DNA of 37,879 nucleotides from Patescibacteria group bacterium (GTDB taxonomy: Bacteria; Patescibacteriota; Minisyncoccia; Phycocordibacterales; BOKC01), in contig BOKC01000006.1 of assembly GCA_016860785.1 (NCBI GenBank), forward strand, positions 1-37,879. Direction: 5' to 3'. The notes beneath the pieces are model-generated. The model had not been told where the DNA came from, made no database searches, and worked only from the letters and a program-made list of their open reading frames with translations. The translations under genes were made by a program, and so were the position numbers. Below are positions 7,053 to 21,079 of this stretch, piece after piece. Each line of letters opens with the position of its first letter. Positions within the stretch are counted from its first letter, which is position 1.

Positions 7053-7550
7053 TTAGGTCTTGGGTCGAATAACAACCCGCCTTTCCGATTTTTCACCAAT
7101 TGATTCTGTCTGAATTTCCGGATCGGAAGAAAACAAGGAGTGAATTATCATTCTTTCATAAGCCGACATCGGTTCAAGCTCAACGGGTTTTTTACTTTTC
7201 TTTACCTCATCTGCCACGAAAATAACTTTATTTCTTATTTTCTTTGCTGACTCTTCTTGATAATTATTTATATCAAGAGTAAATCTGGTAACACCATTTT
7301 TTCGTTGGAAAATTATCCTTCTAACCAAGTGACTGAAGGCCCGCAAATTCTCACCATGGTGACCAATTAAAATTCCAGACTCCTGACTTTTAACCACAAA
7401 CTTCGGGCCTGAATCAGAAAGACCCTTGAAAACCTCTATTTCATCGTAATCAACTCTCATTCGACAAAGCATCTCTTCAATGACACCTTTAACCTCTAAA
7501 CAATAGGCCAAGCTCTCACCTTGTTCTTCATTGTTTTTGTTTATTTCCAT
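7053..7550 (-). CDS. jag: KH/R3H RNA-binding protein Jag (KhpB)
   Basis: A 165-residue protein. A KH domain contains ESGILIGHHGENL (about residues 56-68), followed by an R3H-type C-terminal region (about 100-165, with LEPMSAYERMIIHSLF). It lacks the long Jag-N domain found in many Firmicutes. KhpB-type proteins bind RNA and influence cell division and envelope synthesis. The start overlaps the end of yidC by 23 bases, implying translational coupling, and yidC-jag is the conserved order next to rnpA-rpmH and dnaA. Confidence 0.88.
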   Translation of the reverse strand: MEINKNNEEQGESLAYCLEVKGVIEEMLCRMRVDYDEIEVFKGLSDSGPKFVVKSQESGILIGHHGENLRAFSHLVRRIIFQRKNGVTRFTLDINNYQEESAKKIRNKVIFVADEVKKSKKPVELEPMSAYERMIIHSLFSSDPEIQTESIGEKSERRVVIRPKT

Positions 7551-8274
7551 TTTTTTCTGATTTAATTCCGTTTGTTCTTTTTATAACAATTTCTTGGCCA
7601 ATGGTAAACAAGTTGCTCGTCAGCCAGTAGAGAGCGATAGCGCCAGATAGGGTGTAGGAAATAAATATGGAAATTACCGGAAAAAAATATCGCATTTGGA
7701 TATTCATACTGCGCGCCAAATCATCTTTAAACGATTGACCTATCGGCTTAGTCCCTTTCAAAGCTGGCATTGAAAGCCTCATTTGGACAAAAGTTGTTAT
7801 GCCAACCAAAACCGCCAGAACCCAGCTTTTGGAAGCAATATCAAAAATTCCGATAAATACCATGTTGACAGATTCAGGAACCGGCACAAAAGAATACAAA
7901 ATATTTTGCTTAATTTCCGGCAAACCGGAAGCCCAAAAAATTCGGTACAAAGCAAAAATGATTGGGAGCTGGATTAAAATTAGAAAAAAACTGGAAAACG
8001 GATTGATACCTTTTTCTTTGTAAAGCTCTAAAATTTTGCGGGCCTGTTCTTGCCGATCTTTTTTGTACTTTTCTTTTATTACATCTATTTCCGGTTGAAA
8101 CCTTTTTACATTCTGCTGGGTTATAACCGCTTTTCTGGAAAGAGGGAACAGAATAAAACGAACAATCAAAGTTAAGACCACAACTGCCACACCGGCATCA
8201 GCCCCGATGTCCATCAAAAAAACAAGCCCGTTGTATAGGGGCTCATACATCAGAGTGTTATATAACCAAGACAT
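7528..8274 (-). CDS. yidC: Membrane protein insertase YidC/Oxa1
   Basis: A 248-residue insertase of the short Gram-positive/Oxa1 type without the large periplasmic domain. The first hydrophobic segment (about 26-46) is followed by the cytoplasmic coiled-coil hairpin (FQPEIDVIKEKYKKDRQEQA, about 61-80) and further membrane helices (about 92-112, 134-160 and 195-225). An Arg in the first core helix (VRFILFPLSR) matches the hydrophilic-groove arginine of YidC. It inserts membrane proteins with or without SecYEG. It is preceded by its own leaderless-type promoter, downstream of the rpmH-rnpA terminator. Confidence 0.93.
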   Translation of the reverse strand: MSWLYNTLMYEPLYNGLVFLMDIGADAGVAVVVLTLIVRFILFPLSRKAVITQQNVKRFQPEIDVIKEKYKKDRQEQARKILELYKEKGINPFSSFFLILIQLPIIFALYRIFWASGLPEIKQNILYSFVPVPESVNMVFIGIFDIASKSWVLAVLVGITTFVQMRLSMPALKGTKPIGQSFKDDLARSMNIQMRYFFPVISIFISYTLSGAIALYWLTSNLFTIGQEIVIKRTNGIKSEKNGNKQKQ

Positions 8275-8280
8275 CTCAGT

Positions 8281-8286
8281 ATTTTA
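8281..8286 (-). promoter_or_regulatory. -10 box of yidC (TAAAAT, 6 bases before ATG)
   Basis: On the minus strand TAAAAT-ACTGAG-ATG places the -10 box 6 bases before the yidC start. No ribosome binding site is present. This fits leaderless initiation and a separate yidC-jag unit. Confidence 0.5.
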
Positions 8287-8310
8287 ATCCATTTTCAGTA
8301 AAATTCCAAA

Positions 8311-8343
8311 CAAAAAAGCGCCCCAAGTGAACCAAGAGGCGCT
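8311..8343 (-). terminator. Rho-independent terminator after rpmH-rnpA-small ORF
   Basis: On the minus strand AGCGCCTC...GGGGCGCT forms an 8-bp GC-rich stem (one G-T pair) followed by TTTTTTG. It lies 17 bases after the stop of the small membrane ORF at 8360 and ends the rpmH-rnpA transcript. Confidence 0.8.
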
Positions 8344-8359
8344 CCCAAACGCAAAAAAA

Positions 8360-8542
8360 TCAAGTGAGAAAGCTCAAGAGGACCGCCACAACGGTCAACA
8401 TAACCAACACAAAGACGAGGTTCTCGAACACATGCCCGTGTTTGTTTCTTTTGCCATCCTCTTTCATCACATCCCCCAATTCTTTTTGCAACATTTGCAA
8501 GTGCACACGCTCTCGCAAATTAACCAGTAGAAAATTTATCAA
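8360..8542 (-). CDS. Small single-pass membrane protein between rnpA and yidC
   Basis: A 60-residue ORF, positively charged for 40 residues with a single C-terminal hydrophobic helix (about residues 41-58, NLVFVLVMLTVVAVLLSF). It begins 10 bases after rnpA ends and is followed by a strong terminator, so it sits inside the transcript. In most bacteria this slot holds yidD, but no YidD motif is seen. Reality of the gene is supported by position and the tail-anchor-like helix, not by homology. Confidence 0.45.
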   Translation of the reverse strand: MINFLLVNLRERVHLQMLQKELGDVMKEDGKRNKHGHVFENLVFVLVMLTVVAVLLSFLT

Positions 8543-8552
8543 AATTTGTCTT

Positions 8553-8900
8553 TTACGTCAAAAGGCCGGCCTTTTTCATAACAAGCTGAATTTCTCTATT
8601 TATTTCTTGAAATTTTAAATTTAAAATTCCCGGCTTGAATACAAAAACCACCAAAAAACCGGGGGGTATTTTGTCCAAGACCTCTTTTACTGAAGAATAA
8701 CCCCATCGACGTAGTTTGTTTCTATCAACAGCATTTCCGGAGACCTTGGATGAGACTGAAAAAGAAAACCGGCTTTGTTTTTGCGCCAATTCTTTTGTTT
8801 CCAAGACTACAATAGTCAGGTTTTTGCTAGGAAAAAATTTTCCACTCTTAAAAATTTCCCGAAAATACTCTTTCCTGACCCTAAGAGAAGAGGGGAGCAT
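8553..8900 (-). CDS. rnpA: Ribonuclease P protein component
   Basis: A 115-residue RnpA. The N-terminal LRVRKEYFREIFKSGKFF helps bind pre-tRNA, and the RNR signature appears as VDRNKLRRWG (about residues 57-66). It forms RNase P with the RNA subunit, which is not in this window. The start is taken at the ATG at 8900 (MLPSSLRVR); a TTG at 8909 would add three residues. It follows rpmH by 17 bases in the classic rpmH-rnpA order. Confidence 0.88.
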   Translation of the reverse strand: MLPSSLRVRKEYFREIFKSGKFFPSKNLTIVVLETKELAQKQSRFSFSVSSKVSGNAVDRNKLRRWGYSSVKEVLDKIPPGFLVVFVFKPGILNLKFQEINREIQLVMKKAGLLT

Positions 8901-8917
8901 AAAAAACAAAAGTTGGG

Positions 8918-9052
8918 TTAGGCGGAGAGATTCTTTCTTCCTTTCCGCCTCCTTAATCTGATAGTGCGTCTCCCACTAGAAGTTTTCATCCTTCCTAGAA
9001 AGCCGTGGGTTCTAGATCTTTTTCGTATTTTTAGTTTGTTTGCTTTAGCCAT
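8918..9052 (-). CDS. rpmH: 50S ribosomal protein L34
   Basis: A 44-residue, highly basic protein. The signature KRSRTHGFLGRMKTSSGRR (about residues 11-29) and the ending RRRKGRKNLSA are diagnostic of L34. It is divergent from dnaA across a 104-base AT-rich spacer and leads the rpmH-rnpA operon, the usual arrangement at bacterial origins. Upstream on the minus strand are TATAAT-like boxes but no Shine-Dalgarno sequence. Confidence 0.95.
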   Translation of the reverse strand: MAKANKLKIRKRSRTHGFLGRMKTSSGRRTIRLRRRKGRKNLSA

Positions 9053-9131
9053 AAATTTTATTAACAACTTGTAAACATATTATAAACACAATTGGAGCTT
9101 TTTAACAAGTTTCAAAATCAAAATCAAAAGA

Positions 9132-9137
9132 TATAAT
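9132..9137 (+). promoter_or_regulatory. -10 box of dnaA (TATAAT)
   Basis: A perfect TATAAT lies 19 bases before the dnaA ATG in the AT-rich divergent rpmH-dnaA spacer, giving a leader of about 12 bases without a Shine-Dalgarno sequence. No good -35 box is visible. Confidence 0.5.
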
Positions 9138-9156
9138 TACTAACGCAAAACTAACT

Positions 9157-10518
9157 ATGGACGACAACAAAAAACTCTGGGAAAACGTCTTGGCCGAAAT
9201 AGAGATGAGTATCTCTCCTGCCAATTTTAATACCTGGTTTAAAGATACCTTAATATCAAAAAAGGATGGCGGGGTGGTTTTTTTGAGCGTACCGAATGCT
9301 TTTGTTAAGGAATGGCTTTCCTCAAAGCACCACAATTTCATACTAAAAACCATAAGAAAATTGTCTGACGATGTTCGAGCGCTTGAATACAACATCTCTC
9401 CGACCGACCCCAAAAAAAGAGGTGTTGAGTCACCCTCAAAACCCGTGTCTGTCAGGGGTATTGCAAACAAAGAACTTCCTCTCGGGGAGTTTCATATAAA
9501 CAGAGAGGACAATCTAAACCCAAAATACACCTTTGATTCTTTTGTCGTTGGTCCGTTTAACGAACTTGCTTTTGCCGCCTCCCAAGCAATTGTCAAACAG
9601 CCGGGTTTAGTTTACAACCCTCTTTTTATCTACGGCAACACGGGGGTCGGTAAAACCCACCTTATCCAAGCAATAGGGAACCAAATAAAAACTTCTTACC
9701 CGGAAAAAAGAGTTCATTATGCGACATCTGAAAAATTTGCTATGGATTACATAAATTCAGTGCAGACTAACAAGGTTAATAATTTTAAGGAAAAATACAG
9801 AAAATACGATGTTTTGATAATGGACGACATTCAGTTTCTTTCCAGCAAAGAAAAGACTCAAGAAGAGCTGTTCCATTTATTTAACAACATACACGATAGC
9901 AACAAACAGATAATATTTTCGTCAGACAAGCACCCGAATTTCATTCCTGATATGGAAGATAGATTAAAATCCAGATTTAGCGCTGGAATGATTGTAGATA
10001 TTCCTATTCCTGACCATGAGTCAAGAGCAGCGATACTTAAAACCAAGTCCAAAAGTCTCAATATTGAGCTCTCGCAAGAGATAATAGACTTCATCGCCTC
10101 AACCATCACTTCAAACGTTAGGGAACTTGAGGGAGCGTTAAACACGATCACCTGCCAACACCAAATTAAAAACAGGGAGTTAACTCTAAACGACGTAAAA
10201 AACCTTCTGCGCCACAGCTCTAAACCTAAAAAGACACTGTCGGTAAAAGAGGTTATTAAAATTGTTTCCGATTTTTATAATATGGAAGAAGGAACCATAT
10301 ACGAAAAAACCAGGAAAAAGGAGGTTATAAAACCAAGACAAATAATAATGTACCTCCTCAGGGAAGATTTTGGGATTTCCTACCCATCAATCGGTGAGAA
10401 GTTGGGCGGGCGCGATCACACAACCGTAATTCATTCTTGCGAGAAAATAAGAGGGGAGATAAAAAACGACAGCGTTTTATTTAAAGAAATAGAGCAACTA
10501 AGGTCGATTATTAGTTGA
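9157..10518 (+). CDS. dnaA: Chromosomal replication initiator DnaA
   Basis: A 453-residue DnaA. Domain I (about 1-85, with ISPANFNTWFKDT), a short linker, then the AAA+ domain: Walker A GNTGVGKTH at about 159-167, Walker B VLIMDDIQFL at about 219-228 and sensor/Arg-finger region EDRLKSRFSAGM at about 268-279. Domain IV ends with the DnaA-box-reading signature GGRDHTTVIHSCEKI at about 417-431. It binds origin DnaA boxes and opens DNA for replication. Followed by the origin-like spacer and dnaN. Confidence 0.97.
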   Translation: MDDNKKLWENVLAEIEMSISPANFNTWFKDTLISKKDGGVVFLSVPNAFVKEWLSSKHHNFILKTIRKLSDDVRALEYNISPTDPKKRGVESPSKPVSVRGIANKELPLGEFHINREDNLNPKYTFDSFVVGPFNELAFAASQAIVKQPGLVYNPLFIYGNTGVGKTHLIQAIGNQIKTSYPEKRVHYATSEKFAMDYINSVQTNKVNNFKEKYRKYDVLIMDDIQFLSSKEKTQEELFHLFNNIHDSNKQIIFSSDKHPNFIPDMEDRLKSRFSAGMIVDIPIPDHESRAAILKTKSKSLNIELSQEIIDFIASTITSNVRELEGALNTITCQHQIKNRELTLNDVKNLLRHSSKPKKTLSVKEVIKIVSDFYNMEEGTIYEKTRKKEVIKPRQIIMYLLREDFGISYPSIGEKLGGRDHTTVIHSCEKIRGEIKNDSVLFKEIEQLRSIIS

Positions 10519-10762
10519 AAAAATGATGTGGAAAAACAAAAGCAAACACGTGGATAAACGACTGATATCTCAAAGAATTTTAAGGACAGCGGTTTTTTAT
10601 AAACAACTTATTTGGAAGATCGCCTGACTTTTAAACAACATTTACACACTGACAAAAAATAAATAGGCCTAGAAATAAAGACAAAAAACACTTTTCCACT
10701 TATCAACAAAGATAATAATAAAAATAACAATAAATAATTAAGAAATAATATAGAAAAATAAA
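10519..10762 (+). other. Candidate replication origin (oriC) between dnaA and dnaN
   Basis: This 244-base AT-rich spacer holds DnaA-box-like sites: TGTGGAAAA at 10527-10535 (minus-strand TTTTCCACA), CGTGGATAA at 10549-10557 (TTATCCACG), and TTATCAACA at 10700-10708, each one base from TTATCCACA. An A/T run (AATAATAATAAAAATAAC) near 10711-10740 could be the unwinding element. Gene orientation flips at dnaA, as is usual at origins. No perfect box lies inside; one lies at 12385. GC skew across the genome would be the deciding test. Confidence 0.55.
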
Positions 10763-11863
10763 ATGAAACTAGAATGTTCAAAAGATAAATTATCAGAGGC
10801 GGTTTCCAAAGCTAGTCGGCTAGCGACAAATAGAAATCCAGGACTACCGATTTTGAGTTGTTTACTTTTGGAGAACAAGAATAATCGATTGACTATTAAG
10901 GCCACTAATCTTGAAATCGGGGTTTGTTTGGATGTTCCGGTAAAAACAGAAAAACCTGGCTCGGTGGCTGTCCCTGGGGAAATTTTAAATAATCTTTTGA
11001 CAAACTTGCCATCCGGCAAAAATATAAAAATTGAGGGCAGAGACGGAGAAATAGTGGTCGCAACTGAAAAAAACAGATCAGTTATAAAAACAAAAGATAT
11101 TAACGACTTCCCTTCGATTCCAGAGACAAAATCTGACGCCTTCTCAGTCTCAACCAAGGACTTTACTAACGGTTTAAAATCTGTTTGGTATAGCTCAACA
11201 CAGTCCTCCATAAAGCCAGAGTTGTCGAGTGTTTTTATCTACACCGACTCCGGTGAAATGGTTTTTGTGGCTACAGACTCTTTTCGTTTGGCGGAAAAAA
11301 GAATAAAAGTGAAGCAAAATAAGGATTTTGGAAATGTTCTCTTGCCTTATAAAAACGCTCTTGAGATTGTCAGGGTTTTGGAGGACGAGACAGGCGAAAC
11401 AAACATTTTTTTGGATAAAAATCAGATTTCTCTAAGCTCTGACGGAATTTATATCACCTCCCGTCTGGTTGATAGCTCTTTTCCGGATTACAAACAAATT
11501 ATTTCTAAGGAGTTTGAGACCGAAGCTGTAATTTTGCGTCAAGATTTAATTTCGGCACTAAAGTTGGCGAACGTCTGGTCTGACAAGCTCAATCAAATTA
11601 ACTTTTTAGTTTCTCCGGCAAAAAAGGATTTGGAGGTTCGGACGAGACACTCGGAGTTGGGAGAGAACAATTGTAAGTTGGACGCCGCTCTTTCTGGCAA
11701 GGAGTTGGATATAAGTTTTAACATAAAATATATTGCTGATTGTTTGAGCTCTATCTCTTCTGACAGCGTGTCAATTTCTTTAAATGATGTATCTAAACCG
11801 ATGGTTATACGCGGTGTAGGGGACAAGAGCTTCTTGTATCTGGTGATGCCTATGAATAGGTGA
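10763..11863 (+). CDS. dnaN: DNA polymerase III beta subunit (sliding clamp)
   Basis: A 366-residue clamp with three similar domains. Recognisable parts are the N-terminal MKLECSKDKLSEAVSKASRL, ATDSFRLAEKRI (about residues 170-181) and the C-terminal KPMVIRG...YLVMPMNR, which ends in the standard clamp motif. It encircles DNA and tethers polymerases. It follows the origin-like spacer and is followed by ruvC after 16 bases, likely one transcript. The start has no Shine-Dalgarno sequence. Confidence 0.96.
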   Translation: MKLECSKDKLSEAVSKASRLATNRNPGLPILSCLLLENKNNRLTIKATNLEIGVCLDVPVKTEKPGSVAVPGEILNNLLTNLPSGKNIKIEGRDGEIVVATEKNRSVIKTKDINDFPSIPETKSDAFSVSTKDFTNGLKSVWYSSTQSSIKPELSSVFIYTDSGEMVFVATDSFRLAEKRIKVKQNKDFGNVLLPYKNALEIVRVLEDETGETNIFLDKNQISLSSDGIYITSRLVDSSFPDYKQIISKEFETEAVILRQDLISALKLANVWSDKLNQINFLVSPAKKDLEVRTRHSELGENNCKLDAALSGKELDISFNIKYIADCLSSISSDSVSISLNDVSKPMVIRGVGDKSFLYLVMPMNR

Positions 11864-17568: not shown

Positions 17569-18567
17569 TTAAAATAGACCCTCTTTTTTGCGACCTAAAT
17601 GTTTAAAGCCAAGATCGGTTAATGAGCGACCGCGAGGGGTGCGTTCCAAAAAGCCGATCTGGATTAAATACGGTTCGTTGTATTCCTCAATCGTTGCCAT
17701 CTCTTCGGAAATGGAAGCTGAAAGGGTATTAAGCCCGACCGGTCCGCCTTTAAAATTTTCGGCGATAACCTCAAGAATTTTTCGGTCAGATGATGCAAGA
17801 CCCATTTCATCAATTCCCAAGAGCTCTAAAGCCTCTTTTGCTGTTTTCTCGTCCAGCCCTCGTTTTTTAATCTGGGCATAATCGCGACATCTCTTAAGAA
17901 AATAATTGGCGGTGCGAGGCGTAAAGCGGCTGCGCTTGGCAATTTCCAAAACCGCTTTGTCATCAATTTCAATTCCCAAAATTTTTGCTGACCGTCTGAC
18001 GATTTCGGCTATTTCTTCTTGGTTGTAGTATTCCAAGCGGAAAATCCCGCCGGAAAAACGACTACGAAGCGGAGAGGAAATAAGCGCTACTCTGGTGGTA
18101 GCGGCAATTAAGGTGAAGGGTGGCAATTCTAACTGCACGGTACGGGCTGAAGGTCCTTTACCTAAGACAATATCTAAGGTGCCAGACTCCATAGCCGGAT
18201 ACAAAACCTCTTCAATGACTTTGTTCAGTCGATGGACTTCGTCAATAAATAGAATGTCGCCCGGTGAGAGATTGGTTAAAATTGAAGCCAAGTCTCCAAC
18301 CCTTTCAATCGCTGGACCGGAAGTTATTTTTATCTGAGCACTGATTTCTTTGGCAATTAAATGCGCTAAAGTTGTTTTACCAAGCCCGGGTGGGCCATAA
18401 AAGAGAATATGTTCCGGTGGATGCTCTCTTTCTTTCGCTGCCGAGAGCAAAATATGCAAATTATCTTTTATATTTTTCTGGCCTATGTATTCATCCCACC
18501 TACTCGGTCGAAGTTTTTGGTCTAAATATTGAAAATCGTTTTTTTCTTCTACCTCTTTTTTTCCCAT
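17569..18567 (-). CDS. ruvB: Holliday junction branch migration helicase RuvB
   Basis: A 332-residue AAA+ motor. Walker A YGPPGLGKTT (about 57-66), Walker B ILFIDEVHRL (about 103-112), sensor region IAATTRV and Arg-finger segment LRSRFSGG (about 168-175) are all present, as is the C-terminal winged helix (YLIQIGFLERTPRGR). With RuvA it drives branch migration; RuvC cuts the junction. All three genes are in this window but in different transcripts. Confidence 0.96.
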   Translation of the reverse strand: MGKKEVEEKNDFQYLDQKLRPSRWDEYIGQKNIKDNLHILLSAAKEREHPPEHILFYGPPGLGKTTLAHLIAKEISAQIKITSGPAIERVGDLASILTNLSPGDILFIDEVHRLNKVIEEVLYPAMESGTLDIVLGKGPSARTVQLELPPFTLIAATTRVALISSPLRSRFSGGIFRLEYYNQEEIAEIVRRSAKILGIEIDDKAVLEIAKRSRFTPRTANYFLKRCRDYAQIKKRGLDEKTAKEALELLGIDEMGLASSDRKILEVIAENFKGGPVGLNTLSASISEEMATIEEYNEPYLIQIGFLERTPRGRSLTDLGFKHLGRKKEGLF

Positions 18568-18617: not shown

Positions 18618-18646
18618 TTGACATAAACCATGTTTTATGCTAGGAT
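18618..18646 (+). promoter_or_regulatory. Near-consensus sigma-70 promoter for a non-coding RNA
   Basis: TTGACA (18618-18623), a 17-base spacer ending in TGC, and TAGGAT (18641-18646) give a perfect -35, ideal spacing and an extended -10. It is one of the strongest promoters seen in the window and no plus-strand gene follows for 2 kb. Expected transcription start about 18653. Confidence 0.75.
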
Positions 18647-18652
18647 GGTTGT

Positions 18653-18816
18653 GCCTAAGAAATTTGGCAAATTGAAAACACAAACCTCTAAGCAACGGGC
18701 CTCCGGGCCTTTTGGTTTTTAGCGGGGACCTTTTGGTCTTGGCTGAAATTATCCCTAGCTATCAACCATGCTTTTTTGTTCCACTTAAAAGTGTTGCTTA
18801 GAGGTTTGTGTTTTTT
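18653..18816 (+). ncRNA. Structured non-coding RNA candidate, about 160 nt, family unknown
   Basis: The putative transcript has a perfect 22-bp closing stem between 18675-18696 and 18793-18814, ending in a run of six T, as in a built-in terminator. Inside are GGCC-TCCG-GGCC (18698-18709, a UNCG-type tetraloop) and AGC-gg-GGACC-TTTT-GGTCT-tg-GCT (18721-18744), giving a multibranched fold; the last 45 bases of the interior are A/T-rich. The upstream promoter is near consensus. It lies in the 305-base spacer between ruvB and pilB, both on the other strand. I see no tRNA-like domain (tmRNA), no SRP apical loop and no RNase P core. A 6S-like regulator or a MITE remnant are alternatives. Confidence 0.55.
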
Positions 18817-18872: not shown

Positions 18873-20549
18873 TTATTCTAGCAGTTCAACCACTCTTTCA
18901 AGTTCAGCTATAGACGTAACTCCTTGAAAAACCTTAATTATTCCGTCTTGCGCCATGGTTAAAAGCCCCTGATTTTCTGCCGCTTTTTTTATTTCTCGCT
19001 CGCTCGGATTATTTTGTATTACCCCCTCAACTTTTTCATCGGTTTTTATAGCTTCATAAACCCCAACTCTTCCGGCAAAACCGGTAAGGTTGCATTCTTT
19101 GCAACCCTGGGTTTCCCAAACATTTTCTGTTTGTAGATTTTCAAGGTAGCTTTTTTCTTTTATAGACTCCAAAATTTTTAAAACCGAACTTCTCTCTTGC
19201 CCTGACAATTTTTTAACTTTTCGGCACTTAGGACAAAGCCGTCTTACAAGGCGTTGAGCCATAGCTACATTGATTGCCGAAGTTATAACCTTCGGATTTA
19301 TCTTCAGGTCTATGAGGCGAGGGAAGGTGCCGGCGGCATTGTTGGTGTGGAGTGTTGAAAAAACCAAGTGTCCAGTAAGAGCGGCGTTGATGGCGACCGA
19401 AGCTGTTTCAGAATCTCGAATTTCGCCGACCATTATGACATCTGGGTCTTGTCGCAGAGCACTTCTTAAACCAGAGAGGAAGGTATAACCCTCTTTGTTG
19501 TCGGTTTGTGTTTGGACAATTCCCGGTAGGTGGTATTCAATCGGATTTTCAATTGTAATTATTTTAATTCCTGGCTGGTGGATTTTTTTTAGGAAGGCGT
19601 AAAGGGTTGTTGTCTTTCCAGAGCCGGTTGGACCAGTTGTTAAAATCATACCGTTTGGCTTACTTATTTCGTAAAGTAAGACTTTCAACAGACGTGGATG
19701 CATGCCTAGATTTTCTAAAGACACGGATATCGCTTTTGGATTCAGGATTCTCAAAACTATTGTTTCGGCATAAGCTCCGGGTAAAATTGAGGTTCTTATT
19801 TCTATTTCTTCGTCTTTTAAAATAATACTAAATCGCCCGTCCTGAGCTTGACTTGTTATGTTTAGCTTCAGCCCCGAAAGAAGTTTTATTCTAGACAATA
19901 AAAGTTTGTATGTTGCGTTATCAAAATTCAAGATGTCGGTTAAGACTCCGTCTAATCGAAAGCGCAGGCGAACATAATTTTCTTCCGGCTCCAAGTGAAT
20001 ATCTGAAGCTTTTATAGACAAAGCGCCGGCCAATATCACTTCAAGAATTTTTGAGGTCCGGTTAATCTCTTTTGAAACCAGATTTTTTTCTACAAGCTGT
20101 TTTATTGCGTCAAGACTGTTGGCGTTTTTTATCAAACTTAAAAGACCTTCGTTGGAAATATCGAGAGCGCCACTTCTTGTTTTTACTGATGTATGAAGAT
20201 CAGCGTATCTTTCCCATGCCCTGTTTAGACCCTCTTGAGAGACCATGTACAACTCTATCTGGTAACCTTTTCTTTTTAGAGATTCTATCATTTCTCGACT
20301 TTTTAGATTGTTGGGTGCTAAGATGCCGATTTTCAGGCGTTTATTTATGACATCAAAAACAGCGAGTCCGAACGCTCTAGCGTCTTTTTCACTTAAAATT
20401 TTTAGGGCTTCTATATTTATTGGACTTATTGTTAAATCAATATACGAAAGACCGTACTTTGAAGAAAGAGTTTGGGCCAATTCTTCTGCTTCGGACTTTC
20501 TTAATTCCTCGATTTTCAGGTTCTGTTTTTCTTCTTGAAATTTGGCCAT
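18873..20549 (-). CDS. pilB: Type IV pilus assembly ATPase PilB (GspE family)
   Basis: A 558-residue secretion ATPase. The N-terminal MshEN-like domain (about 1-140) precedes the ATPase core: Walker A TTGPTGSGKTTTLY (about 305-318), Asp and His boxes, Walker B region DPDVIMVGEIRDSETA and the tetracysteine zinc site CPKC (about 444) and CKEC (about 482). It powers pilus extension. The start at 20549 (MAKFQEEK) is chosen because a TAAAAT box lies 10 bases before it; a start at 20588 would add 13 residues. pilM-N-O is at 30053-32507. Confidence 0.92.
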   Translation of the reverse strand: MAKFQEEKQNLKIEELRKSEAEELAQTLSSKYGLSYIDLTISPINIEALKILSEKDARAFGLAVFDVINKRLKIGILAPNNLKSREMIESLKRKGYQIELYMVSQEGLNRAWERYADLHTSVKTRSGALDISNEGLLSLIKNANSLDAIKQLVEKNLVSKEINRTSKILEVILAGALSIKASDIHLEPEENYVRLRFRLDGVLTDILNFDNATYKLLLSRIKLLSGLKLNITSQAQDGRFSIILKDEEIEIRTSILPGAYAETIVLRILNPKAISVSLENLGMHPRLLKVLLYEISKPNGMILTTGPTGSGKTTTLYAFLKKIHQPGIKIITIENPIEYHLPGIVQTQTDNKEGYTFLSGLRSALRQDPDVIMVGEIRDSETASVAINAALTGHLVFSTLHTNNAAGTFPRLIDLKINPKVITSAINVAMAQRLVRRLCPKCRKVKKLSGQERSSVLKILESIKEKSYLENLQTENVWETQGCKECNLTGFAGRVGVYEAIKTDEKVEGVIQNNPSEREIKKAAENQGLLTMAQDGIIKVFQGVTSIAELERVVELLE

Positions 20550-20559
20550 AATCAAGTAC

Positions 20560-20565
20560 ATTTTA
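20560..20565 (-). promoter_or_regulatory. -10 box of pilB (TAAAAT)
   Basis: On the minus strand TAAAAT ends 10 bases before the ATG at 20549. This favours the shorter pilB start and near-leaderless initiation. Confidence 0.45.
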
Positions 20566-20602
20566 ACCCCTTTAGTGTGTTTGAACAAATGGTCATTTTG
20601 TC

Positions 20603-20617: not shown

Positions 20618-21079
20618 ATGAAGTTTATTTCAAAAAGCTTAAAAGAGACTGACGATTTCGCAAAAAATTTGGTCAAGCTACTTTATTCAAAACAACAGAG
20701 TAAACAAGCCGTGATCATATGTCTTTCCGGTGAGCTTGGAGCTGGTAAAACCACCTTTGTAAAGTCTTTGGCAAAAGCGCTCGGAATCAAAGAGCATATC
20801 ACTAGCCCCACTTTTGTAATTTTGAAACGTTATAAAATCAACACCCCGTCTTTCAAGAACCTTATACACATTGACGCTTACAGACTTAAGTCTGGAAGCG
20901 AGCTTTTGAGTCTTGGTTGGCAGGATATTGTTTCCGAACAAGACAACTTAGTTTTTATTGAGTGGCCGGAAAATGTGATTAGTGTGATTCCTAAAGGAGC
21001 TGTTATCATTAGATTAAGAGTTGTAAACGAGTCGGAGAGAGAAATCAAGTCAATTAAAAACCTAAACCTTGGGTTCTAA
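20618..21079 (+). CDS. tsaE: tRNA threonylcarbamoyladenosine biosynthesis ATPase TsaE
   Basis: A 153-residue P-loop protein. Walker A GELGAGKTTFVK is at about residues 38-49, followed by ITSPTFVILKRY (switch region, about 65-76) and HIDAYRL with FIEWPENV, all typical of TsaE. It energises the TsaD-TsaB complex that makes t6A37 in ANN-reading tRNAs. It heads a likely operon with polA and holA. Confidence 0.94.
   Translation: MKFISKSLKETDDFAKNLVKLLYSKQQSKQAVIICLSGELGAGKTTFVKSLAKALGIKEHITSPTFVILKRYKINTPSFKNLIHIDAYRLKSGSELLSLGWQDIVSEQDNLVFIEWPENVISVIPKGAVIIRLRVVNESEREIKSIKNLNLGF

Follow-up and report, generated by a model that had tools for sequence, protein, structure and literature searches.

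The element between ruvB and pilB in the window analyzed here (the whole 37,879-nucleotide stretch of contig BOKC01000006.1) is, in our assessment, probably a stand-alone, untranslated gene for a structured, class-specific RNA that most likely works in trans as the RNA component of an abundant ribonucleoprotein. Direct support exists for the consensus promoter, the fold of the plus strand, the single copy, and vertical inheritance at one locus, and the RNA is confined to the class Paceibacteria (formerly Parcubacteria), where most of the sampled members keep it. The original prediction, made from the sequence of the window, had offered two readings, a new CPR small RNA or a highly divergent 6S-like RNA. 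The first is strongly supported by the covariation, the single copy, and the fixed locus described below, whereas the second is a less likely possibility.

Secondary structure and covariation

The fold of the plus strand comprises four helical elements. The closing stem P1, a perfect helix of 22 bp as originally noticed, pairs positions 18675–18696 with positions 18793–18814, is backed by the fold, by the self-match of the inverted repeat, and by covariation, and is followed by a U-run, the probable 3' end of the RNA, as the original prediction had noted. The hairpin P2 (18697–18710), placed by the fold, carries a UCCG loop, in keeping with the UNCG cap noted earlier. The arm P3 (18713–18768), with its conserved core formed by GGAC (18726–18729) and UAUCC (18750–18754), and the hairpin P4 (18770–18792; CUUUU...AAAAG) are supported by both the fold and covariation. 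The sequence GGACC-UUUU-GGUCU, previously read as a hairpin of its own, is present, but in the best fold it belongs to the longer P3 arm. The minimum free energy (MFE) is -73.6 kcal/mol, compared to a mean of -40.1 kcal/mol for shuffled sequences (z = -8.05; 0 of 200 shuffles as low); for the closed RNA alone, the corresponding values are -68.9 and -34.5 (z = -9.6).

This architecture is shared across the family. P1 is a near-perfect helix of approximately 22–28 bp, P2 is variable and missing in some divergent members, P3 is a long arm with the nearly invariant pattern GGA...UGG...CUG...UCC, and P4 retains its CUUUU...AAAAG-type hairpin. In MFE folds of 97 family loci, the helices meet in a four-way junction in 79 cases and in a three-way junction in 11. 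At one locus (L234), the sequence of P1 is wholly replaced (CUGGGGACA/UGUCCCCAG) with the pairing retained.

Compensatory changes among relatives, the check that the original prediction had proposed, are abundant. RNAalifold applied to 53 members yielded 42 base pairs, 33 of them with double compensatory changes. When the stored structure was scored on the 53-member alignment, 93.7% of the cells were paired, and 287 cells were compensatory against 86 in shuffles, with 0 of 500 shuffles scoring as high. Because this alignment had been fitted to a covariance model, a second test used a MAFFT alignment of 57 members made from sequence alone, in which 35 of 40 pairs showed double changes and 397 cells were compensatory, compared to 111 after shuffling (0 of 500 shuffles as high). 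Sliding the partners by one column in the 57-member alignment reduced pairing from 92.5% to 50–54%. The shuffles ignore the tree, so the covariation counts are not to be read as probabilities, whereas the slid controls preserve relatedness. The excess of G-U cells (239) over A-C cells (44) identifies the plus strand as the RNA; the minus strand was rejected on this ground and by its far lower model score (54 bits, versus 124 bits for the plus strand of the window).

Promoter and transcript ends

The near-perfect promoter described in the original prediction is present 5' of the RNA on the plus strand: an extended -10 sigma-70 promoter of the consensus form TTGACA-17-TGcTAGGAT spans positions 18618–18646 (TTGACA at 18618–18623, TG at 18638–18639, and TAGGAT at 18641–18646). 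In 91 of the 97 family loci, the window included, the RNA is preceded within 150 nt by an exact TTGACA-N16-18-TANNNT match, where 0.3 would be expected from shuffling, and the background of this pattern elsewhere in the loci is approximately 0.003 per 150 nt. The spacer is 17 nt long in 85 of the 97 loci, and TG precedes the -10 element in 75.

From the -10 spacing, transcription is predicted to start at 18653 on the plus strand, with a short leader up to 18674. Leader length varies among relatives, with 0–121 nt separating the -10 element from P1, so that some members should start at P1 and others should carry a leader that is probably trimmed. The product in the window is likely approximately 144–165 nt long, starting near 18652–18654 or trimmed to P1; across the family, the RNA ranges from 134 to 218 nt. 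A U-run at the 3' end of P1 is found in 46 of the 97 loci, and visual inspection revealed a separate hairpin followed by a T-run downstream in some of the loci that lack it.

A near-identical promoter (TTGACA ... TATGCTAGGATG) occurs elsewhere in the same genome (G000:C3:22126, locus L081). Downstream of it lie a short leader that forms a hairpin and a 147-codon open frame, the product of which looks secreted.

Distribution among relatives

The element is present in a single copy in the 574-kb genome, where the only other self-matches are between its own two P1 arms, and a genome of the same genus carries it at 83% identity. A DNA search of 397 genomes of the order produced many short matches to the stem, and at most of the top matches the whole RNA could be extracted together with a matching promoter. 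A covariance model built from 26 sequences (R1) matched 74 of 384 class genomes, including 36 of 43 in the same order (order counts as in the rows listed). Two weak R1 matches (L247 and L248) were judged false by eye, one being a simple repeat and the other a lone hairpin, and neither has the core motif; the source of the former is a run of tandem CATCTAAG-type repeats that form a hairpin (L247:1572-1664).

A second model (R2), built from 57 diverse members, was searched against 381 genomes of the phylum. Matches were obtained in 28 genomes, all among the 34 members of the class (18 of the 19 from the order and 10 of the 15 from the remainder of the class, with totals from the rows listed), and in none of the 347 Patescibacteria genomes of other classes. 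This sharp boundary indicates that false calls by the model are few. Approximately one in six class members lacks a detected copy. Among the pattern matches listed, the named records belong to Taylor-, Zambryski-, Vogel-, Kaiser-, Nomura-, Adler-, and Wolfebacteria, and the remaining ones to other Paceibacterota/Parcubacteria or to unclassified bacterial assemblies; the name Paceibacteria for the class was deduced from the titles of these records. The pattern scan produced no match in viral contigs, and a phage origin was rejected on this basis.

Genomic locus

In the window, the RNA gene is flanked by two Pfam-confirmed genes on the minus strand, namely, the divergent upstream neighbor ruvB (17569–18567) and the convergent downstream neighbor pilB, encoding a T2SSE/PilB ATPase (18873–20588); both are context and not part of the RNA. 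As originally stated, no plus-strand gene follows for 2 kb, the next likely one, a tsaE-like gene, starting at 20618. The gene pilB is convergent downstream at all 97 family loci, and ruvB is divergent upstream at 92. That the position is shared by many families in the class points to vertical inheritance at one locus, although the fixed position alone does not prove a functional link with either neighbor. In one member of the order without an RNA match (G073), other neighbors were found at both pilB copies, in a survey that covered approximately 60% of the genome and in which ruvB fell outside the covered part.

A jag-yidC-rnpA-dnaA-dnaN cluster (gene names assigned by eye) occupies positions 7053–11863 of the window, approximately 7–11 kb from the RNA, which places the locus close to the probable origin of replication of this genome.

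Comparison with known RNAs

Rfam searches at gathering and lax thresholds with the window, 20 relatives, and 18 divergent members returned chance matches only, for example, between miRNA models and the long stem. The original statement that the element does not look like tmRNA, RNase P RNA, or SRP RNA is corroborated, given that the first two are located elsewhere in the genome (G000:C4:21666-22079 and G000:C8:21670-22119, respectively) and the third was undetected. Like the new RNA, tmRNA and RNase P RNA are single-copy housekeeping RNAs, but the element has no match to the tmRNA model RF00023 or in ARAGORN, with no tRNA-like domain recognized, nor to the RNase P RNA model RF00010.

The case of SRP RNA, also a small stable RNA, differs in that its slot is open in these genomes. 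SRP RNA (RF00169) and the Ffh M-domain (PF02978) were each undetected in all 21 genomes searched, that is, the window genome and 20 relatives. Within the window genome, the Ffh of one phylum member used as a query found nothing credible, and FtsY was undetectable. Controls run beside these searches matched in 13–14 of 14 cases. The SRP54/FtsY GTPase domain (PF00448) produced one strong match in the 381 phylum genomes, so that almost all Patescibacteria in the sample seem to lack the signal recognition particle. A yidC-like gene is present in the window (7528–8274).

Among orphan, clade-wide structured RNAs, raiA and OLE are examples that are widespread and highly structured and have functions not evident from sequence. 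The new RNA resembles them in these general respects, but belongs to another lineage and has another architecture, and no sequence or model relation to either was found.

With respect to 6S RNA (RF00013), matches were found in 32 of the 381 genomes of the phylum, four of which exceed the curated cut-off. All 32 belong to other classes; 6S RNA was undetected in the 34 class members. At six fetched 6S loci from sister classes (L280-L285), the RNAs are approximately 143–160 nt long and, when folded, most show a closing stem, a largely open 5' strand, a second arm, and a 3' hairpin. A gene for an M50-family peptidase lies within a few hundred bases of each of the six, and none of these loci has a match to ruvB or pilB.

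Alternative explanations

The strongest competitor to a new family is that the element represents the Paceibacteria 6S RNA, altered so far that it is no longer recognizable, and acts as a promoter mimic in the cleft of RNA polymerase. P1 would then correspond to the downstream arm and P3 to the upstream one, with P4 taking the place of the hairpin found in the 3' strand of the central bubble. We consider this possible but unlikely. The length, single copy, self-standing gene, and strong promoter would fit, as would the order P1-P3-P4, which parallels the rod, center, second rod, and 3'-side hairpin of most of the folded 6S RNAs, and the two RNAs are complementary in their phyletic pattern. That pattern, however, is a weak argument because 6S RNA is also undetected in approximately 90% of the genomes outside the class, so that its absence within the class carries little weight. 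No tested family member reached the RF00013 gathering threshold, and lax thresholds were likewise negative; in the converse direction, R2 did not match the six 6S RNAs, and its two marginal matches in those loci fall upstream of the 6S gene. No large single-stranded central bubble was found, the center being instead a compact three- or four-way junction with few unpaired bases in the folds inspected; P1 is a near-perfect helix in contrast to the irregular closing stems of 6S RNAs; an extra P2 hairpin is often present; and the genomic locus differs. Thus, of the earlier description as 6S-like, the general rod-junction-rod layout and the phyletic complementarity hold, but the Rfam match, the bubble, and the locus do not. 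On the tested features, the family falls outside 6S RNA, and "works like 6S" is possible in the sense of an analogue.

The other explanations carry less weight. The nearly invariant placement between ruvB and pilB, together with the pilB match that stops a few nucleotides past P1 in many loci, could mean a local role and to that extent counts against action in trans: the transcript would be an antisense or insulating element that separates or tunes the two genes, with P1 as a two-way terminator. This we regard as improbable because neither a terminator nor mere antisense would need compensatory conservation inside P3 and P4, a loop of approximately 100–130 nt makes P1 a poor terminator, and the RNA in the window overlaps neither coding region. 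Still less probable is a stand-in for the missing SRP RNA. The failure to detect SRP RNA and the Ffh M-domain in the 21 related genomes would speak for it, but the GTPase was detected in hardly any of the 381 genomes whereas the RNA is limited to one class, so that the two distributions differ, and the family lacks the GGAA-capped helix-8 motif conserved in SRP RNA, as well as a match to RF00169 and, in the window genome, a detectable Ffh partner. A mobile inverted repeat (MITE) or a chance hairpin, suggested by the long perfect inverted repeat of approximately 140 nt, is refuted for practical purposes. Recurrence at many loci with different flanks, named in the original prediction as the mark of a MITE, was not found; the element is single-copy with the same flanking genes at the 97 loci, its helices covary, a conserved promoter lies outside the repeat, and the pattern has no viral match.

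Proposed role

In the preferred reading, that of a trans-acting RNA, strong constitutive transcription would yield an abundant RNA, the P1 rod and the U-run would set the 3' end and seal both ends against exonucleases, and any leader would be trimmed. The nearly invariant P3 core, together with P4 and the junction, is the putative protein-binding face, through which the RNA may act in trans inside a ribonucleoprotein. RNA polymerase is our leading, though tentative, guess for a single partner, in which case the RNA would imitate a promoter and serve as a decoy, as 6S RNA does; most of the remaining probability goes to a ribonucleoprotein that is ribosome-associated or of another kind. We see about an even chance that this is a housekeeping ribonucleoprotein RNA restricted to Paceibacteria, with a mechanism of its own and no descent from 6S, SRP, tmRNA, or RNase P RNA, gained by the ancestor of the class and mostly kept at one locus.

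Novelty and implications

Rfam 15 has no entry for this RNA family, and no description was found in open-access papers, with subscription papers and preprints lying outside the scope of the literature search. The RNA could be assigned to no known RNA family, although an earlier description is possible; if it were shown to descend from 6S RNA, it would be a variant of a known RNA rather than a new family. Paceibacteria are a very species-rich class with small genomes (0.5–1 Mb in the samples) that have lost much. More than 80% of the sampled members keep the folded RNA, which has a consensus promoter and a fixed locus, so that the RNA is likely important, and its retention at one spot suggests an important housekeeping job. 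The RNA provides a ready marker and a covariance model for the class, and it raises the question of its binding partner in organisms without detectable SRP and 6S RNA.
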